Source: Lutibacter sp. HS1-25
GTDB lineage: Bacteria; Bacteroidota; Bacteroidia; Flavobacteriales; Flavobacteriaceae
Direction of reading: 5' to 3'
NCBI RefSeq assembly: GCF_004121075.1
Contig: NZ_RHLN01000018.1
Location: 1-64,000, forward strand
Length of the DNA stretch: 64,000 nt
The notes beneath the pieces are model-generated. The model saw only the letters and a program-made list of their open reading frames with translations, did not search any database and was not told where the DNA came from. Shown in pieces: positions 3,321-51,358 of the stretch (position 1 is the stretch's first letter; each line of letters opens with the position of its first letter). The translations under genes were made by a program, and so were the position numbers.

Positions 3321-3418
3321 AGGGCGTTACCCACAAGGGGTCGGGCTATACGCTATATCTTTTTTACAATTCCACTGCGTTACATTGTAAAAAAGGATGC
3401 CGCTGCTATCCCTAACGC
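3321..3418. repeat. Palindromic intergenic repeat
   Basis: Outer arms GCGTTA (3324-3329) and TAACGC (3413-3418) enclose an inner hairpin TTTTTTACAAT / ATTGTAAAAAA (3360-3370 with 3383-3393). GC content (ACAAGGGGTCGGGC) is above that of the surroundings. It resembles intergenic palindromes I have seen in other flavobacterial genomes, but only one copy is in this window. Confidence 0.6.
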
Positions 3419-3420
3419 AA

Positions 3421-3448
3421 ATCAATTATCAATTATCAATTATCAATT
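3421..3448. repeat. Tandem repeat, four copies of ATCAATT
   Basis: Four exact direct copies of the 7-mer ATCAATT in the metH2-metF gap. Related AT-rich strings occur near 51905-51935. No function is apparent. Confidence 0.85.
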
Positions 3449-3523: not shown

Positions 3524-6202
3524 TTAAACCAAATTCGGATTCAACCATTTTTTAGCCGTTTCTAAATCCATATTTTTTCTTACAGCAAAATCTTTTACCT
3601 GTTCTTCGGTAATTTTACCCAAACCAAAGTATTTTGCTTTTTCATTTCCAAAATAATATCCCGAAACCGATGCCGCTGGCCACATAGCCAAACTATCTGT
3701 CAACTCAACACCAATGGTTTCTTTTACACTTAACAAATCCCAAATAGTCCATTTTTCAGTATGATCCGGACAAGCAGGATATCCCGGTGCTGGTCTTATT
3801 CCTTTATAATCTTCCTTTATCAATTCTTCATTCGATAAATTTTCAGCGTTTGCATAACCCCAATATTCTTTACGAACCTTTTTGTGTAAATACTCAGCAA
3901 AAGCTTCCGCCAATCTATCTGCCAAGGCTTTGATCATAATCGAATTATAATCGTCGTGGTCTTTTTCAAATTCAGCAGCCAATTCAGCAGTTCCAAATCC
4001 GGTCGACACACAAAATGCACCCATATAATCGTTTATACCTGTTTGTTTAGGCGCCACAAAATCTGCCAAGGCAATATTTGGAATGCCATCTTTCTTTTTT
4101 GCCTGCTGACGCAAAGTTACAAATTGCACATTTACCTTATTTCTTTCAGCATCAGCATAAATCTCAATATCATCATCATTCACCGTATTTGCAGGAAAAA
4201 TTCCAAACACCGCTTTTGCTGTAAGCAATTTTTCATCCAAAACTTTTGCCAACATTATTTTAGCATCTTTAAATAAATTTGATGCCGCTTCACCTACAAC
4301 CTCATCAGTTAAAATAGCAGGAAATTTACCTGCCAATTCCCAAGTTCTAAAAAACGGACTCCAATCTATATAATCAACCAACTTGGTTAAATCAAATTCT
4401 TCAAAAACCTGCGTACCAATAAAATTAGGCGCTTTAATTTCTGTAGAATTCCAATCTATTTTAAATTTATTTTTACGAGCATCAGACAAAGAAACATACT
4501 CTTTATTATTTGACCTGTTTTCAAAACCTTCACGCACTTTTACATAATCAGCTTTAATATCGCTAATGTACTTTTGATTGGTTCTTTTATTTAACAAATC
4601 ACCAACCACAGTTACTGCTCTTGAAGCATCATGAACGTGAACAACTGCATTTTTATATTGAGGATCAATTTTTACAGCTGTATGTGCTTTTGAAGTAGTT
4701 GCGCCACCAATTAACAAAGGCACTTCAAAATTTTGACGCTCCATTTCTTTGGCCAAATACACCATTTCATCTAAACTTGGCGTTATCAATCCGCTTAAAC
4801 CAATGGCATCAACATTTTGATCTTTAGCCGCCTGAATAATTTTTTCAGGAGCAACCATTACCCCTAAATCTACAATATCATAATTGTTACAACCCAAAAC
4901 AACACCCACAATATTTTTACCAATATCGTGCACATCACCTTTTACGGTAGCCAATAAAATTTTTCCATTTGATTGGTTTGCACCATCTTTATCAAGCTCA
5001 ATAAAAGGCAATAAATACGCTACCGCTTTTTTCATTACACGCGCAGATTTTACCACCTGAGGTAAAAACATTTTACCCGATCCAAATAAATCTCCAACTA
5101 CATTCATCCCAATCATTAAGTTACCTTCAATAACCTGAATGGGTTTTTCAGCTTCTAATCTTGCTGTTTCAATATCTTCAATAATATATTCATCTAAACC
5201 TTTTACCAACGAATGTGTAATTCTGTCTTGTAAAGGTTTTTCACGCCAAGACAAATCAACTTTACGCTCTTTGGTTGTGCTAATAACACTTTCTGCAAAA
5301 TCTAACAAACGTTCTGTTGCATCTTCTCTTCTATCTAAAATAACATCTTCAACACGTTCTAATAAATCTTTCGGAATTTCATCGTAAACTTCTAACATTG
5401 TTGGGTTTACAATTCCAATATTCATCCCTGCTTTGATGGCGTGATATAAAAATACCGAATGCATAGCTTCACGAACCGCATCATTTCCACGGAAAGAAAA
5501 CGACACATTACTTACACCTCCACTAACATTTACATTTGGCAGGTTTTCACGAACCCAACGCGTAGCTTCAATAAAATCTATGGCATTTCTTTTGTGCTCA
5601 TCCATTCCTGTGGCAACAGGAAAAATGTTTAAATCGAAAATAATATCTTCCGAAGGAAAACCAACTTTATCAACCAAAACATCATAAGAACGTTTGGCTA
5701 TTTCAATTCTTCTATCGTAATTATCGGCTTGACCAACTTCATCAAAAGCCATTACAATAATGGCAGCACCATACATTTTAATTTTTTTGGCTTGCACTAT
5801 AAAATTTGCTTCACCTTCTTTTAAACTGATTGAATTTACCACACATTTACCTTGAGCAACTTGCAAACCAGCTTCAATAATTTCCCATTTAGAACTATCA
5901 ATCATAATAGGTACACGAGCAATATCTGGTTCTGCAGCAATTAAATTCATAAAACGAACCATTGCTTCTTTACCATCTAACAAACCATCATCCATATTAA
6001 TGTCGATAATTTGCGCTCCACCATCAACCTGATGACGTGCAATAGCTAAAGCTTCATCAAACTTTTCTTCTTTTATCAGTCGTAAAAATTTACGAGAACC
6101 CGCAACATTGGTACGTTCACCAACATTTATAAAATTACTTTCTGGCGTAATTACTAAAGGTTCAAGTCCTGATAACCTTAAATATTTTTTTTCTTTATTC
6201 AT
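3524..6202 (-). CDS. metH: Methionine synthase, pterin/cobalamin/reactivation part (split MetH)
   Basis: 892 residues with the C-terminal three modules of cobalamin-dependent MetH. They are the pterin-binding barrel ([14 protein letters not shown] from about 26), the cobalamin cap and Rossmann domains with the B12-ligand motif DVHDIGKN near 419-426, and the AdoMet reactivation domain to the C-terminus ([12 protein letters not shown] near 805). The homocysteine-binding module is encoded separately by the upstream gene, 71 bp away. Together they transfer the methyl group from CH3-THF to homocysteine. The split form is common in Bacteroidota. Expected to be under the SAM-I riboswitch ahead of metH1. 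Confidence 0.95.
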
Positions 6203-6273
6203 TTTATTCTGATGTGATTCTGAAACAAGTTCAAAATGACGTATAAATTCAATTTGTACTAATTAACCAACAG

Positions 6274-7272
6274 CTAACAACTAGTAACCACTCTTGGTTT
6301 ATAATCTTTTACCATATCAGCTATTGCTTTGATATGCGCAGGTGTTGTTCCGCAACAACCTCCAATAATATTGATTAAGTTTTTATCTAAATATTCTTTA
6401 ATTTGATTTGCCATCATTTCTGGCGTTTCATCATATTCACCAAAAGCATTTGGCAATCCTGCATTTGGATGTGCCGAAATACCCAAATCTGATTTTTGTG
6501 CCAACACTTCTAAATGCGGTGTTAATTGACTGGCTCCTAAAGCGCAGTTGAAACCAACAGATAACAATGGGATATGTGATACTGAAATTAAAAAAGCTTC
6601 AGCTGTTTGTCCAGACAATGTTCTTCCACTAGCATCGGTAATTGTACCACTTAACATAATTGGAATATCAATATTTCTTTCAGCTTTTATTTCTTCAATA
6701 GCAAACAAGGCTGCTTTGGCATTTAAGGTATCAAAAACAGTTTCAACCAACAACACATCAACACCACCGTCAATCAAAGCTTCGGCTTGTTGTTTGTAAG
6801 CAACTCTTAAATCTTCAAAAGTTACTGCTCTAAAACCAGGATCATTTACATCGGGAGACATACTTGCAGTACGGTTTGTTGGACCTATAGAACCTGCTAC
6901 AAAACGAGGTTTATCAGGATTTTTAGCCGTAAATTCATCAGCAACTTCTTTGGCAATTTTAGCCGATTGGTAATTTAACTCATATACATAATCTTCCATT
7001 TCATAGTCGGCCATAGCAATGGTTGTACTGCTAAAAGTGTTTGTTTCAATAATATCAGCACCGGCTTCTAAATATTTTTTATGAATTTCTTTGATAGCTT
7101 CAGGTTGGGTAATAGAAAGCATATCGTTATTTCCTTTTACTGAAATTTTAAAATCTTTAAATTGCTCACCTCTATAATCTTCTTCAGTAAATTTATACTG
7201 TTGAATCATAGTTCCCATAGCGCCATCAAGCACCAAAATTTTATCTTGTATTATTTTCTGAATATTTTCCAT
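6274..7272 (-). CDS. Homocysteine S-methyltransferase module of split methionine synthase
   Basis: 332 residues corresponding to the N-terminal Hcy-binding barrel of MetH. It has LDGAMGTMIQ near 15-24, ETNTFSST near 76-83, and the zinc ligands in GFNCALG (about 240) and GGCCGTTP (about 304-311). It lacks folate and B12 modules and must work with the 892-residue protein encoded just downstream. It is the first gene after the SAM-I riboswitch, which fits repression of methionine synthesis by S-adenosylmethionine. The ATG at 7272 begins a normal N-terminus. Confidence 0.94.
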   Translation of the reverse strand: MENIQKIIQDKILVLDGAMGTMIQQYKFTEEDYRGEQFKDFKISVKGNNDMLSITQPEAIKEIHKKYLEAGADIIETNTFSSTTIAMADYEMEDYVYELNYQSAKIAKEVADEFTAKNPDKPRFVAGSIGPTNRTASMSPDVNDPGFRAVTFEDLRVAYKQQAEALIDGGVDVLLVETVFDTLNAKAALFAIEEIKAERNIDIPIMLSGTITDASGRTLSGQTAEAFLISVSHIPLLSVGFNCALGASQLTPHLEVLAQKSDLGISAHPNAGLPNAFGEYDETPEMMANQIKEYLDKNLINIIGGCCGTTPAHIKAIADMVKDYKPRVVTSC

Positions 7273-7353
7273 AATTATGTATTCGTATAAACTTTTATAT
7301 GAATTTTGATAGTTATTAAATTAAAGAATTTCCTTTTTATGAAGTTTTCTTAT

Positions 7354-7454
7354 GTTATCTTCCCACAAAATTGAGGTAGAATGTAGCACCTTCTTTATGT
7401 ATAAAGGGTTGCCAAGGCTTCATAAGGTCTATTCCCTCTGCCTTTCTTAATAAC
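7354..7454 (-). ncRNA. SAM-I (S-box) riboswitch upstream of metH1
   Basis: On the minus strand the P1 stem GTTATT...AAGATAAC closes an element with the S-box core: AAAGGCAGAGGGAATAGACC, then GAAGCCTTGGCAACCC, then AAGAAGGTGCTA. Gene context is metH1-metH2-metF. I see no clear hairpin with a T tract between 7354 and the ATG at 7272, so the expression platform is unclear and control may be translational. Recognition is by eye from conserved S-box strings. Confidence 0.9.
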
Positions 7455-7483
7455 TAATTTCAATGCGTTTATGAACTTGCGTG

Positions 7484-49396: not shown

Positions 49397-49498
49397 TACT
49401 ATTTCATTAAAAAATATAAAACGTACAATTTTTGCCGTTTGCTACTTATAAATTATTGTTGTGAGAAATGCTTAAATTACGAAGGTAATTACGTAAAA

Positions 49499-49596
49499 GT
49501 TATCTATCCAAATTGGGTAGAATTTAGCACCTTCTTTATTATGTAAAGGGTTGCTAAGGCTTCAACGGGTCTATTCCCTCTGCCTTTCTTGATAAC
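49499..49596 (-). ncRNA. SAM-I (S-box) riboswitch upstream of the metX-thrA fusion
   Basis: On the minus strand the P1 stem is GTTATC...GATAAC. The core has AAAGGCAGAGGGAATAGACC, GAAGCCTTAGCAACCC and AAGAAGGTGCTAAATT, nearly identical to the element at 7354-7454. Between it and the ATG at 49396 there is no convincing terminator, so the expression platform is unresolved. It controls metX-thrA and probably the metZ-like gene. Confidence 0.9.
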
Positions 49597-49625
49597 AATA
49601 GTCAATAAGTTTATGAACTAAGCCG

Positions 49626-49670: not shown

Positions 49671-50960
49671 TTATTTTGATTGTTCAGCTGCCTTAGCAAA
49701 AGCTTCTTTTAAATCATTTTTTAAATCTTCAATATCCTCAAGACCAACTGATAAACGAATTAAATCTTGTGTAACACCCGATGCAATTTGCTGATCTTCA
49801 GTTAATTGCTGATGCGTTGTGCTTGCAGGATGAATAATCAACGATTTGGTATCTCCAATATTTGCCAATAACGAAAATAATTGAGTTGCATCTGTAACTG
49901 CTTTGGCTGCTTCAAAACCACCTTTTAAACCAAAAGTAACCAATCCACTTTGTCCGTTTGGTAAATATTTTTTAGCCAAATCGTAGTATTTGCTACTTTC
50001 TAAACCTGGATAATTTACCCAAGCAACTTCTTCTCTATCCTCTAACCATTTTGCCAATTCCAATGCATTTGCACTGTGTTGCTTAATACGAACTGGTAAA
50101 GTTTCCAATCCTTGGATAATTTGAAAAGCGTTAAACGGACTCAAAGCACCACCAAAATCACGTAAACCTTCTAAAATTAATTTAAATGTAAATGCTGCTG
50201 CACCTAAAGCTTCGCTATAAACCAATCCGTGGTATCCGGCTGATGGCTCTGTAAATTCTGGAAATTTTCCGTTAGTCCAATCAAAAGTACCAGCATCAAT
50301 AATAGCACCTCCTAATGAGTTTCCTTGCCCGCCAATATATTTTGTTAATGAGTGAATAACCAAATTAGCTCCATGTTTAATAGGGTTTAACAATGCCGGA
50401 CTTGCAACTGTATTGTCTACAATAAAAGGTACTCCTGCAGCTTGCGATTCTTTAGCAATGGCTTCTAAATCTAACACATCTAATTTTGGATTTCCTAAAG
50501 ATTCAACAAAAAATGCTCTTGTATTTTCTTGAACTGCTTTTTTAAAGTTTTCTGGATTTGAAGCATCAACAAAAGTTGTTGTAATACCCAATCTTGGTAA
50601 GGTAACATTTAGCAATGTAAACGTACCACCATACAAACTGCTTGAAGCTACAATATGATCGCCTGCTCTTAACAATGTTAACAATCCTGTTGAAATTGCT
50701 GATGTACCTGAAGCAAATACTACTGCTCCTACACCACCTTCAATAGCAGCTAATCGTTGTTGTAAAATATCGTTTGTTGGATTGTTTAAACGTGTGTAAA
50801 TAAATCCTAATTCTTTTAATGAAAATAAATTTGCAGCATGTTCTGTATCATCAAAAACATATGATGAAGTTTGGTAAATAGGCACCGCTCTGGTTCCTGA
50901 AGTATTGTCTGTATTGTGTCCTGCGTGTAATGCTTGTGTTGATAATTTTTGAGTGCTCAT
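49671..50960 (-). CDS. metY: O-acetylhomoserine (thiol)-lyase
   Basis: 429 residues, the length of the MetY class of Cys/Met PLP enzymes. ALHAGHNTDNTSGTRAVPIYQ is split here as ALHAGHNTDNTSG and TRAVPIYQ (about 10-30). PLP lysine lies in HSLTKYIGGQG (about 210), with NIGDTKSLIIHPAST near 371-385. It makes homocysteine from O-acetylhomoserine and sulfide, linking the sulfate operon to methionine. Its 5' region holds two leader peptides and two terminators (51001-51324), predicted to sense charged tRNA-Met/Cys. It ends just upstream of the SAM riboswitch promoter. Confidence 0.94.
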   Translation of the reverse strand: MSTQKLSTQALHAGHNTDNTSGTRAVPIYQTSSYVFDDTEHAANLFSLKELGFIYTRLNNPTNDILQQRLAAIEGGVGAVVFASGTSAISTGLLTLLRAGDHIVASSSLYGGTFTLLNVTLPRLGITTTFVDASNPENFKKAVQENTRAFFVESLGNPKLDVLDLEAIAKESQAAGVPFIVDNTVASPALLNPIKHGANLVIHSLTKYIGGQGNSLGGAIIDAGTFDWTNGKFPEFTEPSAGYHGLVYSEALGAAAFTFKLILEGLRDFGGALSPFNAFQIIQGLETLPVRIKQHSANALELAKWLEDREEVAWVNYPGLESSKYYDLAKKYLPNGQSGLVTFGLKGGFEAAKAVTDATQLFSLLANIGDTKSLIIHPASTTHQQLTEDQQIASGVTQDLIRLSVGLEDIEDLKNDLKEAFAKAAEQSK

Positions 50961-51000: not shown

Positions 51001-51036
51001 AAGTCCCTTTGGTTTTAGGTATTACCAAAGGGACTT
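51001..51036 (-). terminator. Attenuator terminator 2 upstream of metY
   Basis: AAGTCCCTTTGGT / ACCAAAGGGACTT is a 13-bp perfect stem (51001-51013 with 51024-51036), followed on the minus strand by TTATTTTT. A rival 12-bp pairing uses GGTATTGCCAAA at the end of leader ORF 2 with TTTGGTAATACC in the 5' arm and loop. Confidence 0.85.
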
Positions 51037-51063
51037 AAATCTATATTGATTTTATTTTTCCAT

Positions 51064-51156
51064 TTATTTTTGGCAATACCATATCATTGTGTTACGCATC
51101 ATTTGCATACACATTGTTAATTGGTTTGACATGTTTTTTTGGAAATTTAAATTCAT
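51064..51156 (-). CDS. Methionine-rich leader peptide 2 (attenuator ORF for metY)
   Basis: 30 residues, ATG 51156 to TAA 51064-51066. Met lies at 1, 9, 15, 17, 19, 20 and 24 (MCMQMM at 15-20), and Cys at 16 and 28. The last codons (TGG TAT TGC CAA A) form the antiterminator strand for terminator 2. Stalling at Met codons would leave this strand free; completion of translation would cover it and let the terminator form. Too short for family detection; called from composition and architecture. Confidence 0.75.
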   Translation of the reverse strand: MNLNFQKNMSNQLTMCMQMMRNTMIWYCQK

Positions 51157-51177
51157 TTTCTGCTTATTTTAAAATAA

Positions 51178-51203
51178 AAAACCTCTGATTGCTCAGAGGT
51201 TTT
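51178..51203 (-). terminator. Attenuator terminator 1 upstream of metY
   Basis: AAAACCTCTGA / TCAGAGGTTTT (51178-51188 with 51193-51203) is an 11-bp stem closed by a GCAA tetraloop on the minus strand and followed by TTATTTT. Confidence 0.85.
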
Positions 51204-51227
51204 ACATTGTTTTATATTTAAAAAGTT

Positions 51228-51296
51228 TTAAACAATAGGTGCCTCTGCGTAAATTTTACACATCATACAACGCATTTTGTTAAACTTAATTATCAT
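51228..51296 (-). CDS. Met/Cys-rich leader peptide 1 (attenuator ORF for metY)
   Basis: 22 residues, ATG 51296 to TAA 51228-51230, with MRCMMC at positions 8-13. CAGAGG near the end of the ORF (51242-51247) pairs with CCTCTG of terminator 1, and ATTGTTT at the last codons pairs with AAACAAT before the terminator, giving a two-part antiterminator. A strong promoter lies 20 nt upstream of the ATG. Predicted to respond to charged tRNA-Met and/or tRNA-Cys. Confidence 0.75.
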   Translation of the reverse strand: MIIKFNKMRCMMCKIYAEAPIV

Positions 51297-51316
51297 TTTT
51301 TTCTTTTTTGATGTCA

Positions 51317-51345
51317 CAAATGTAATCACAAAATTTTAATATGCA
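51317..51345 (-). promoter_or_regulatory. Promoter of the metY attenuator leader
   Basis: TACATTTG (51317-51324) on the minus strand matches TAnnTTTG, with TTG 19 nt upstream (51344-51346). A transcript would start about 10-15 nt before leader ORF 1. Confidence 0.65.
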
Positions 51346-51358
51346 ATAAAATTTTATG

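Follow-up and report, generated by a model that had tools for sequence, protein, structure and literature searches.

Two like leader-peptide attenuators in series as the probable control of metY in Lutibacter and other Flavobacteriaceae

In Lutibacter sp. HS1-25, two ribosome-mediated transcription attenuators in series very probably control metY, the gene for O-acetylhomoserine sulfhydrylase. An earlier reading of the DNA without database searches (the sequence-only reading) had proposed attenuation used twice in series, and the proposal is strongly supported by conservation, compensatory pairing, and codon placement across loci. Four features by which such attenuators are recognized were found: leader ORFs with pathway codons, intrinsic terminators, antiterminators at the ORF ends (with only partial exclusion by overlap in unit 2), and an ordered placement of the control codons. 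The pair most likely multiplies one signal, which would give a low leak and a steeper response, and is not an AND of two signals.

We studied a stretch of 64,000 nucleotides from this genome (contig NZ_RHLN01000018.1), referred to below as the window. Every element of the proposed layout, from a promoter through two alternating leader ORFs and terminators to metY, is present on the minus strand at 51346-51001, and the three proposed pairings (CAGAGG with CCTCTG, ATTGTTT with AAACAAT, and a 12-bp pairing with one G-U) were all located in the sequence (Table 1).

Table 1. Elements of the metY leader and the controlled gene in the window
Feature	Position	Strand	Description
Promoter	51317..51346	minus	TTG 51346-51344, 19 nt spacer, TACATTTG 51324-51317; seen in sequence
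Leader ORF1	51228..51296	minus	MIIKFNKMRCMMCKIYAEAPIV, 22 aa, contains MRCMMC; kept in 47 tandem loci
Antiterminator 1, 5' strand CAGAGG	51242..51247	minus	Inside ORF1; partner CCTCTG 51199-51194
Antiterminator 1, second half	51206..51236	minus	ATTGTTT 51236-51230 (includes the start of the ORF1 stop codon) with AAACAAT 51212-51206
Terminator 1	51178..51203	minus	11-bp stem and U-tract
Leader ORF2	51064..51156	minus	MNLNFQKNMSNQLTMCMQMMRNTMIWYCQK, 30 aa; seven Met (start included) and two Cys
Antiterminator 2, 5' strand GGTATTGCCAAA	51069..51080	minus	End of ORF2; partner TTTGGTAATACC 51029-51018; one G-U in the pairing
Linker	51037..51061	minus	GGA 51061-51059, can pair with UCC 51033-51031 of terminator 2
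Small hairpin in linker		minus	AAATC 51052-51048 with GATTT 51041-51037; model fold
Terminator 2	51001..51036	minus	12-bp stem; U-rich tail 51000-50993
metY (O-acetylhomoserine sulfhydrylase)	49671..50960	minus	Controlled gene; TIGR01326 631.8 bits, above cut-off

The promoter is of a kind that we take to be the Bacteroidota type. The motif TAnnTTTG was found no more than 75 nt upstream of ORF1 in 43 of the 47 tandem loci described below, and the full pattern TTG-N16..22-TAnnTTTG in the same 75 nt in 41 of them. When the Met and Cys content of the leader ORFs was compared with that of eight proteins from the window, the enrichment was significant for both ORF1 (P = 1e-4) and ORF2 (P = 2e-7). 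A generic terminator scan reported terminator 1; terminator 2 was absent from its output, probably because its 12-nt loop exceeds the limit of the scan, which is 8. T-box models are included in Rfam, as is SAM-I (RF00162). As no Rfam family reached its gathering score in 51001-51346, SAM-I included, a T-box in the metY leader was rejected. A-rich stretches precede both leader ORFs, in agreement with the reported lack of Shine-Dalgarno sequences in Bacteroidetes (PMC6847099).

From the anatomy, its conservation, the compensatory changes in the pairings, and the placement of the codons, we infer the following dynamics. When charged Met-tRNA (or Cys-tRNA) is ample, the ribosome would reach the end of the leader ORF and mask the 5' strand of the antiterminator, and with this strand masked the terminator would form and transcription would stop. 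When charged tRNA is scarce, the ribosome would come to a halt within the stretch of Met and Cys codons, whose end in unit 1 is about four codons short of the antiterminator strand. That strand would then be left free to pair with the 5' arm of the terminator, and RNA polymerase would read through. To reach metY, the polymerase would have to get past both units.

The Lutibacter set comprised the loci from this genome and 27 other genomes of the genus (L001-L028); a partial metY match (G004) was set aside, and 8 of 36 same-genus genomes gave no metY match. Both units were present in all 27 Lutibacter loci with complete upstream DNA, L008 being excluded as its contig ends within unit 2, and in 20 loci of other Flavobacteriaceae, Christiangramia and several Flavobacterium among them. 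The tandem counts are given without L008 and without L030, L067, L121, and L259, where the upstream DNA is cut; the 47 tandem loci are also without L139 and L150, in which the second terminator is weak, and the alignments are without L101. L122 is a repeat of L098, and L027 is a repeat of L025 in unit 2. Leader ORFs, Met and Cys codons, and pairings are conserved over many genera, close relatives included; the lack of conservation that the sequence-only reading had named as grounds for refutation was not observed.

Some leaders show additional elements. L110 has a promoter-like sequence between the two units. In five Flavobacterium-type loci (L099, L102, L110, L134, and L187), terminator 2 and metY are separated by a small ORF, some 50-60 aa in length, and in L021, L022, and L023, about 250 bp of repeat-rich DNA with GGGGC/GCCCC palindromes is inserted at the same place. 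In L092 and L094, what comes after the unit of terminator 1 is a short ORF with Cys (MKIAIYNPRRCCRMCS) that lacks a terminator of its own and may represent unit 2 in decay.

The structures were scored on sequence-only alignments made with MAFFT. As the loci share ancestry, the resulting conservation counts are strong but not independent. Terminator 1 was paired in 98.8% of the alignment cells, with 41 cells carrying two-sided changes, and terminator 2 in 99.6%, with seven pairs showing two-sided changes. The core of antiterminator 1, CAGAGG with CCTCTG, was paired in 92.4% of cells; one of its pairs is AU in 33 loci, CG in 8, and GU in 5, and the eight loci with CGCTGC in terminator 1 carry GCAGCG in ORF1. 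In L009 and L012, antiterminator 1 pairs poorly. For antiterminator 2, 92.1% of cells were paired, 27 of them with two-sided changes, and one pair occurs as GC in 16, CG in 12, AU in 11, and GU in 2 of the 45 loci. Register-slid controls were far lower, at 17.5-54.3% for this structure, a comparison in which the scored structures, being taken from the window sequence, are somewhat favoured. The second half of antiterminator 1 was weak: ATTGTTT with AAACAAT was paired in only 54-65% of cells in the alignment, where its spacing varies, and a spacing-free swap test gave P = 0.002. Of the antiterminator 1 pairing as originally proposed, the core is thus well founded and the second half is not to the same degree.

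In the window, pairing of the ORF end with the terminator arm was stronger than that of shuffled ORF ends (z = -2.6 for unit 1 and -4.2 for unit 2). In a duplex swap among 22 representatives, the cognate partner was the best one in five cases for unit 1 and four for unit 2, and the mean energies for cognate and foreign partners were -12.6 vs -10.7 kcal/mol and -14.5 vs -11.5 kcal/mol, respectively; in the case of unit 1 of the window, all 21 foreign arms outscored its own arm.

Folding predictions indicated that the antiterminator is the best fold before the 3' arm of the terminator is made (-11.9 kcal/mol in unit 1 and -17.0 kcal/mol in unit 2), and that the terminator is favoured once the 3' arm is made (-13.3 vs -11.9 kcal/mol in unit 1, -22.9 vs -17.2 kcal/mol in unit 2). 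The predicted energetics of both units are the usual kinetic arrangement. The layout had been called a textbook one, which holds for unit 1 and does not for unit 2, where antiterminator 2 pairs mainly with the loop of the terminator and the top of its stem: the overlap is with 5 of the 12 stem pairs in this genome, and with about two in L090. Because the pairing is mostly with the loop, exclusion in unit 2 would be less complete than in the textbook case unless a further pairing, of GGA in the linker with UCC in terminator 2, is real. A GGA:UCC-type match was found in 33 of the 45 loci, compared with a mean of 8.2 in shuffled linkers. It is suggestive only, but such a match may extend antiterminator 2 into the lower arm and close the exclusion gap. 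A candidate protector (1:2) pairing in unit 2, of a kind that would favour termination when the leader is untranslated, joins TTTCCA near the start of ORF2 with TGGAAA; it was paired in 69.6% of cells (24 two-sided) and competes with GGA:UCC for the same bases.

The position of antiterminator 2 on the loop and stem top could also mean that unit 2 works as a pseudoknot: the loop of terminator 2 would be bound by antiterminator 2 with the lower stem still in place, so that termination is modulated and not excluded. For the lower stem by itself (7 bp), the predicted energy is -7.4 kcal/mol. However, the lower arm could be sequestered by the GGA:UCC extension in those 33 loci, and the forced antiterminator 2 fold is predicted to be stable alone (-17.2 kcal/mol). 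We regard the pseudoknot as unlikely.

The placement of the control codons agrees with attenuation by a stalled ribosome. In ORF1, the Met and Cys codons concentrate at -30 to -13 before antiterminator 1; they occupy -21..-19 in 43, -18..-16 in all, and -15..-13 in 34 of 46 loci, and none of the 184 cells at -12..-1 holds one. A ribosome whose A site is at the last control codon would cover about 12 further bases, and the empty stretch in ORF1 is what this ruler predicts. ORF2 has a similar edge, with Met or Cys at -21..-19 in 43 of 45 loci and at -12..-10 in two of 45. The exception is a Met at -9..-7 (51087-51085 in the window), which is kept in 33 of the 45 loci; stalling at this codon would leave part of antiterminator 2 under the ribosome.

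Codon counts in Lutibacter point to Met first of all. In ORF1, ATG occurs in frame in 98 of 586 codons and in the other frames in 6 and 0 of 586; in ORF2, the values are 145 of 780 in frame, and 0 and 12 of 780 out of frame. Cys codons in unit 1 number 45 in frame and 60 of 586 in the +1 frame, the latter count being high because ATG followed by T gives TGT. In ORF2, a TGC inside antiterminator 2 adds to the Cys count in 32 of the 45 loci. As in-frame Cys codons do not exceed those of the +1 frame in unit 1 and the count in ORF2 includes this TGC, Met sensing is firmer than Cys sensing. Synthesis of Cys solely via homocysteine was considered as an explanation for the Cys codons and found unsupported, as the genome has a cysE-like gene (scoring below the cut-off of that model) adjoining a PALP-family gene.

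The two attenuators might answer different signals, either as an AND gate of Met and Cys supply or as two unrelated signals in the manner of Salmonella mgtCBR, a known two-signal tandem (PMC3641672). Both kinds of codon do occur, and runs of Cys (CCC, for example) are found in some unit-2 ORFs of Flavobacterium. Nevertheless, the ratio of Met to Cys codons is about the same in the two units, both in Lutibacter (98:45 in unit 1, 145:67 in unit 2) and in the other genera (80:45 and 142:86), and we consider different signals quite unlikely. AND-type logic, one of the two possibilities raised by the sequence-only reading, is therefore unsupported; the other, a steeper response, fits better with two like sensors in series. 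From the equal ratios, the most likely role of the pair is to multiply a single signal.

A covariance model restricted to unit 2 was built from 45 loci and run on 299 genomes of the family. It gave 16 matches below 1e-10, 11 at loci used for the model and 5 at new loci, and although the model held unit 2 only, unit 1 was found upstream in all five. Four of the new loci stand before metY and one (L284) before metX. The metX of L284 scored 181.6 bits with TIGR01392, which is below the cut-off, as is the score of the window's own MetX (172.2); the L284 genome was not among the genomes with a metY match at 1e-150. The antiterminators form again in these held-out loci, for example TATGGCCAAAA in L288 and ATGTATTACC in L286. 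The pairing of unit 1 in L284 was weak in the automatic test (z = -0.6), and terminator 2 of L286 has an interrupted stem and was absent from the output of the terminator scan. On the genome of the window itself, the unit-2 model (R1) gave one strong match, at metY (5.3e-28); as for reuse of unit 2 elsewhere in this genome, the next match (0.003) was the metY site on the opposite strand, and all others were at 0.04 or above.

The weaker matches in the family (1e-10 to 1e-3) were inspected at L289-L296 and four further places. Seven of L289-L296 were without a met gene by eye; the eighth, L290 (5.8e-8), is a tandem too. At L290:1080-2269, a transposase-like ORF comes after the complete leader, close to where the contig ends; the metY of this genome is found at the start of another contig, and leader and metY may have been parted by an insertion. 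By their position, the weak matches in G084 and G311 belong to the leaders of L139 and L150, 35 nt from metY on its upstream side, and second matches in G324 and G075 land on unit 1 of leaders already matched.

That one unit alone regulates metY, the other being a decayed or constitutive terminator, is very unlikely: single units do stand before metY (unit 1-like alone in six loci and unit 2-like alone in three), but codon placement and compensatory pairing are kept in both units over the 47 tandem loci, and both units recur in the newly found loci. It is highly improbable that the leader ORFs encode functional Met/Cys-rich peptides, for example metal-binding or metal-sensing ones, with stalling that answers metal and not tRNA charging, since CxMMC-like, CC, and MxxM patterns do resemble metal ligands but the peptides vary widely outside the Met/Cys positions and pairing segments, the distance to the antiterminator sets the positions of Met and Cys, and all 16 model matches below 1e-10 stand before metY or metX.

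Doubled attenuation by tRNA charging at metY is our preferred reading, and similar leaders may serve further genes. At one weak match (L303), two terminators and a Met/Cys ORF precede metX; this site lies downstream of metY in G185 (L303:520-1599) and is perhaps a second tandem within one genome. At another (L304:90-540, G169), the gene encodes a nitrite/sulfite reductase and has a terminator and a CYMCMC-containing leader ORF in front of it; G169 has a tandem at metY besides this leader. A Met/Cys ORF was also found before a gene without a family match (L306), and no leader-like elements were found at the weak-match site L305. L303 and L304, both weak matches, suggest that Met/Cys leaders serve further sulfur genes too.

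We then compared the tandem with the SAM-I riboswitch (RF00162) as alternative leaders of metY. Of the distinct regions upstream of metY, 236 in all, SAM-I stands in 167 and the tandem in 46, and two more have a tandem with a weak second terminator. The remaining regions are unit-1-like only (6), unit-2-like only (3), neither (6), or cut short (5), and one from another family (L029) has a single Met-rich leader. SAM-I and the tandem were never found together in any of the 236 regions. SAM-I was called by a sequence pattern, and Rfam confirmed it in all 13 pattern-positive loci tested and added 11 that the pattern had missed; the leaders of 20 tandem loci gave no match to an Rfam family. In L084, labelled an uncultured Lutibacter, the pattern found SAM-I, and a tandem was not seen within the 355 upstream bases. 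In many loci (L090, L107, L110, L213, and others), the opposite strand carries a SAM-II riboswitch upstream of metY, and the gene at this riboswitch resembles metK by eye.

The neighbouring Met operons of the window had been said to use SAM riboswitches, and this was borne out by Rfam, which placed SAM-I before metX-aspartokinase/homoserine dehydrogenase (49497-49598) and before metH (7352-7456). The window's metH is split into two genes (3524-7272), with SAM-I upstream of the first. A Flavo-1 RNA match (57.3 bits) lies on the minus strand at 3335-3423.

As related genera have SAM-I at metY, the sensed signal probably changed between tRNA charging and SAM during the evolution of the family. 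In a quick tree of MetY (119 labelled rows, without the proteins of L059 and L288), the leader label changes at least five times, and three of these changes are forced by well-supported branches. The ten Lutibacter MetY proteins in the tree (loci from L001-L028) sit in three separate places, and their tandem leaders are closely similar. This suggests, as a lead, that the coding region was exchanged beneath a fixed leader in Lutibacter. Taken together, we think it rather likely that the tandem is a family-wide double sensor, two independent ribosome-stall sensors of Met (and Cys) tRNA charging with the same signal in both units, which is exchangeable with SAM-I, has spread to metX in some genomes and perhaps to other sulfur genes, and was kept as a unit while the metY coding sequence was replaced. 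If so, a central step of methionine synthesis would be under classical attenuation, used twice, across many genera of a large family without Shine-Dalgarno sequences. Sister genera would then allow sensing of tRNA charging and of SAM to be compared at one gene, and the tandem would be a natural system in which to ask how a second attenuator of the same kind affects leak, threshold, or steepness.

Leader-peptide attenuation is already known, and within the literature searched the same-signal tandem at metY is new. The matches listed in our searches, mostly titles and abstract openings, included no report of metY in Bacteroidota being controlled by a Met/Cys leader-peptide attenuator, whether alone or in tandem. 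The statement that no such design had been described in Bacteroidota can thus be kept for the metY tandem; it fails for leader-peptide attenuation in general, as clues for it have been reported at amino-acid operons of Flavobacterium psychrophilum (PMC9723704). That report also concerns amino-acid biosynthesis operons in Flavobacteriaceae, but its main text never names metY or methionine. Exchanges between riboswitch, leader peptide, and T-box have been described, as has a tandem terminator at rimP (PMC2965389). SAM-I resembles the tandem in standing before metY; unlike the tandem, it binds SAM directly and has no leader ORF, and it was not found in the tandem leaders tested. The cysteine leader peptides of Actinobacteria are likewise ORFs with Cys runs upstream of sulfur amino acid genes, but they are reported without conserved terminators, and the same report found no conserved RNA structures upstream of methionine operons (PMC1262725). 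In Salmonella mgtCBR, too, one leader contains a pair of short ORFs, each of which controls whether the coding region is transcribed; there, mgtM answers ATP and mgtP proline (PMC3641672), whereas the metY tandem has the same codons in both units and precedes a biosynthetic gene.

The classical ribosome-mediated attenuators are the trp, his, leu, and thr leaders of enterobacteria. The metY tandem shares with them a leader ORF with codons for an amino acid of the pathway, an intrinsic terminator, and an antiterminator that overlaps the ORF end; it differs from them in its Met/Cys codons, in having two full units in series, in its occurrence in Bacteroidota, and, in unit 2, in an antiterminator that mostly pairs with the terminator loop.
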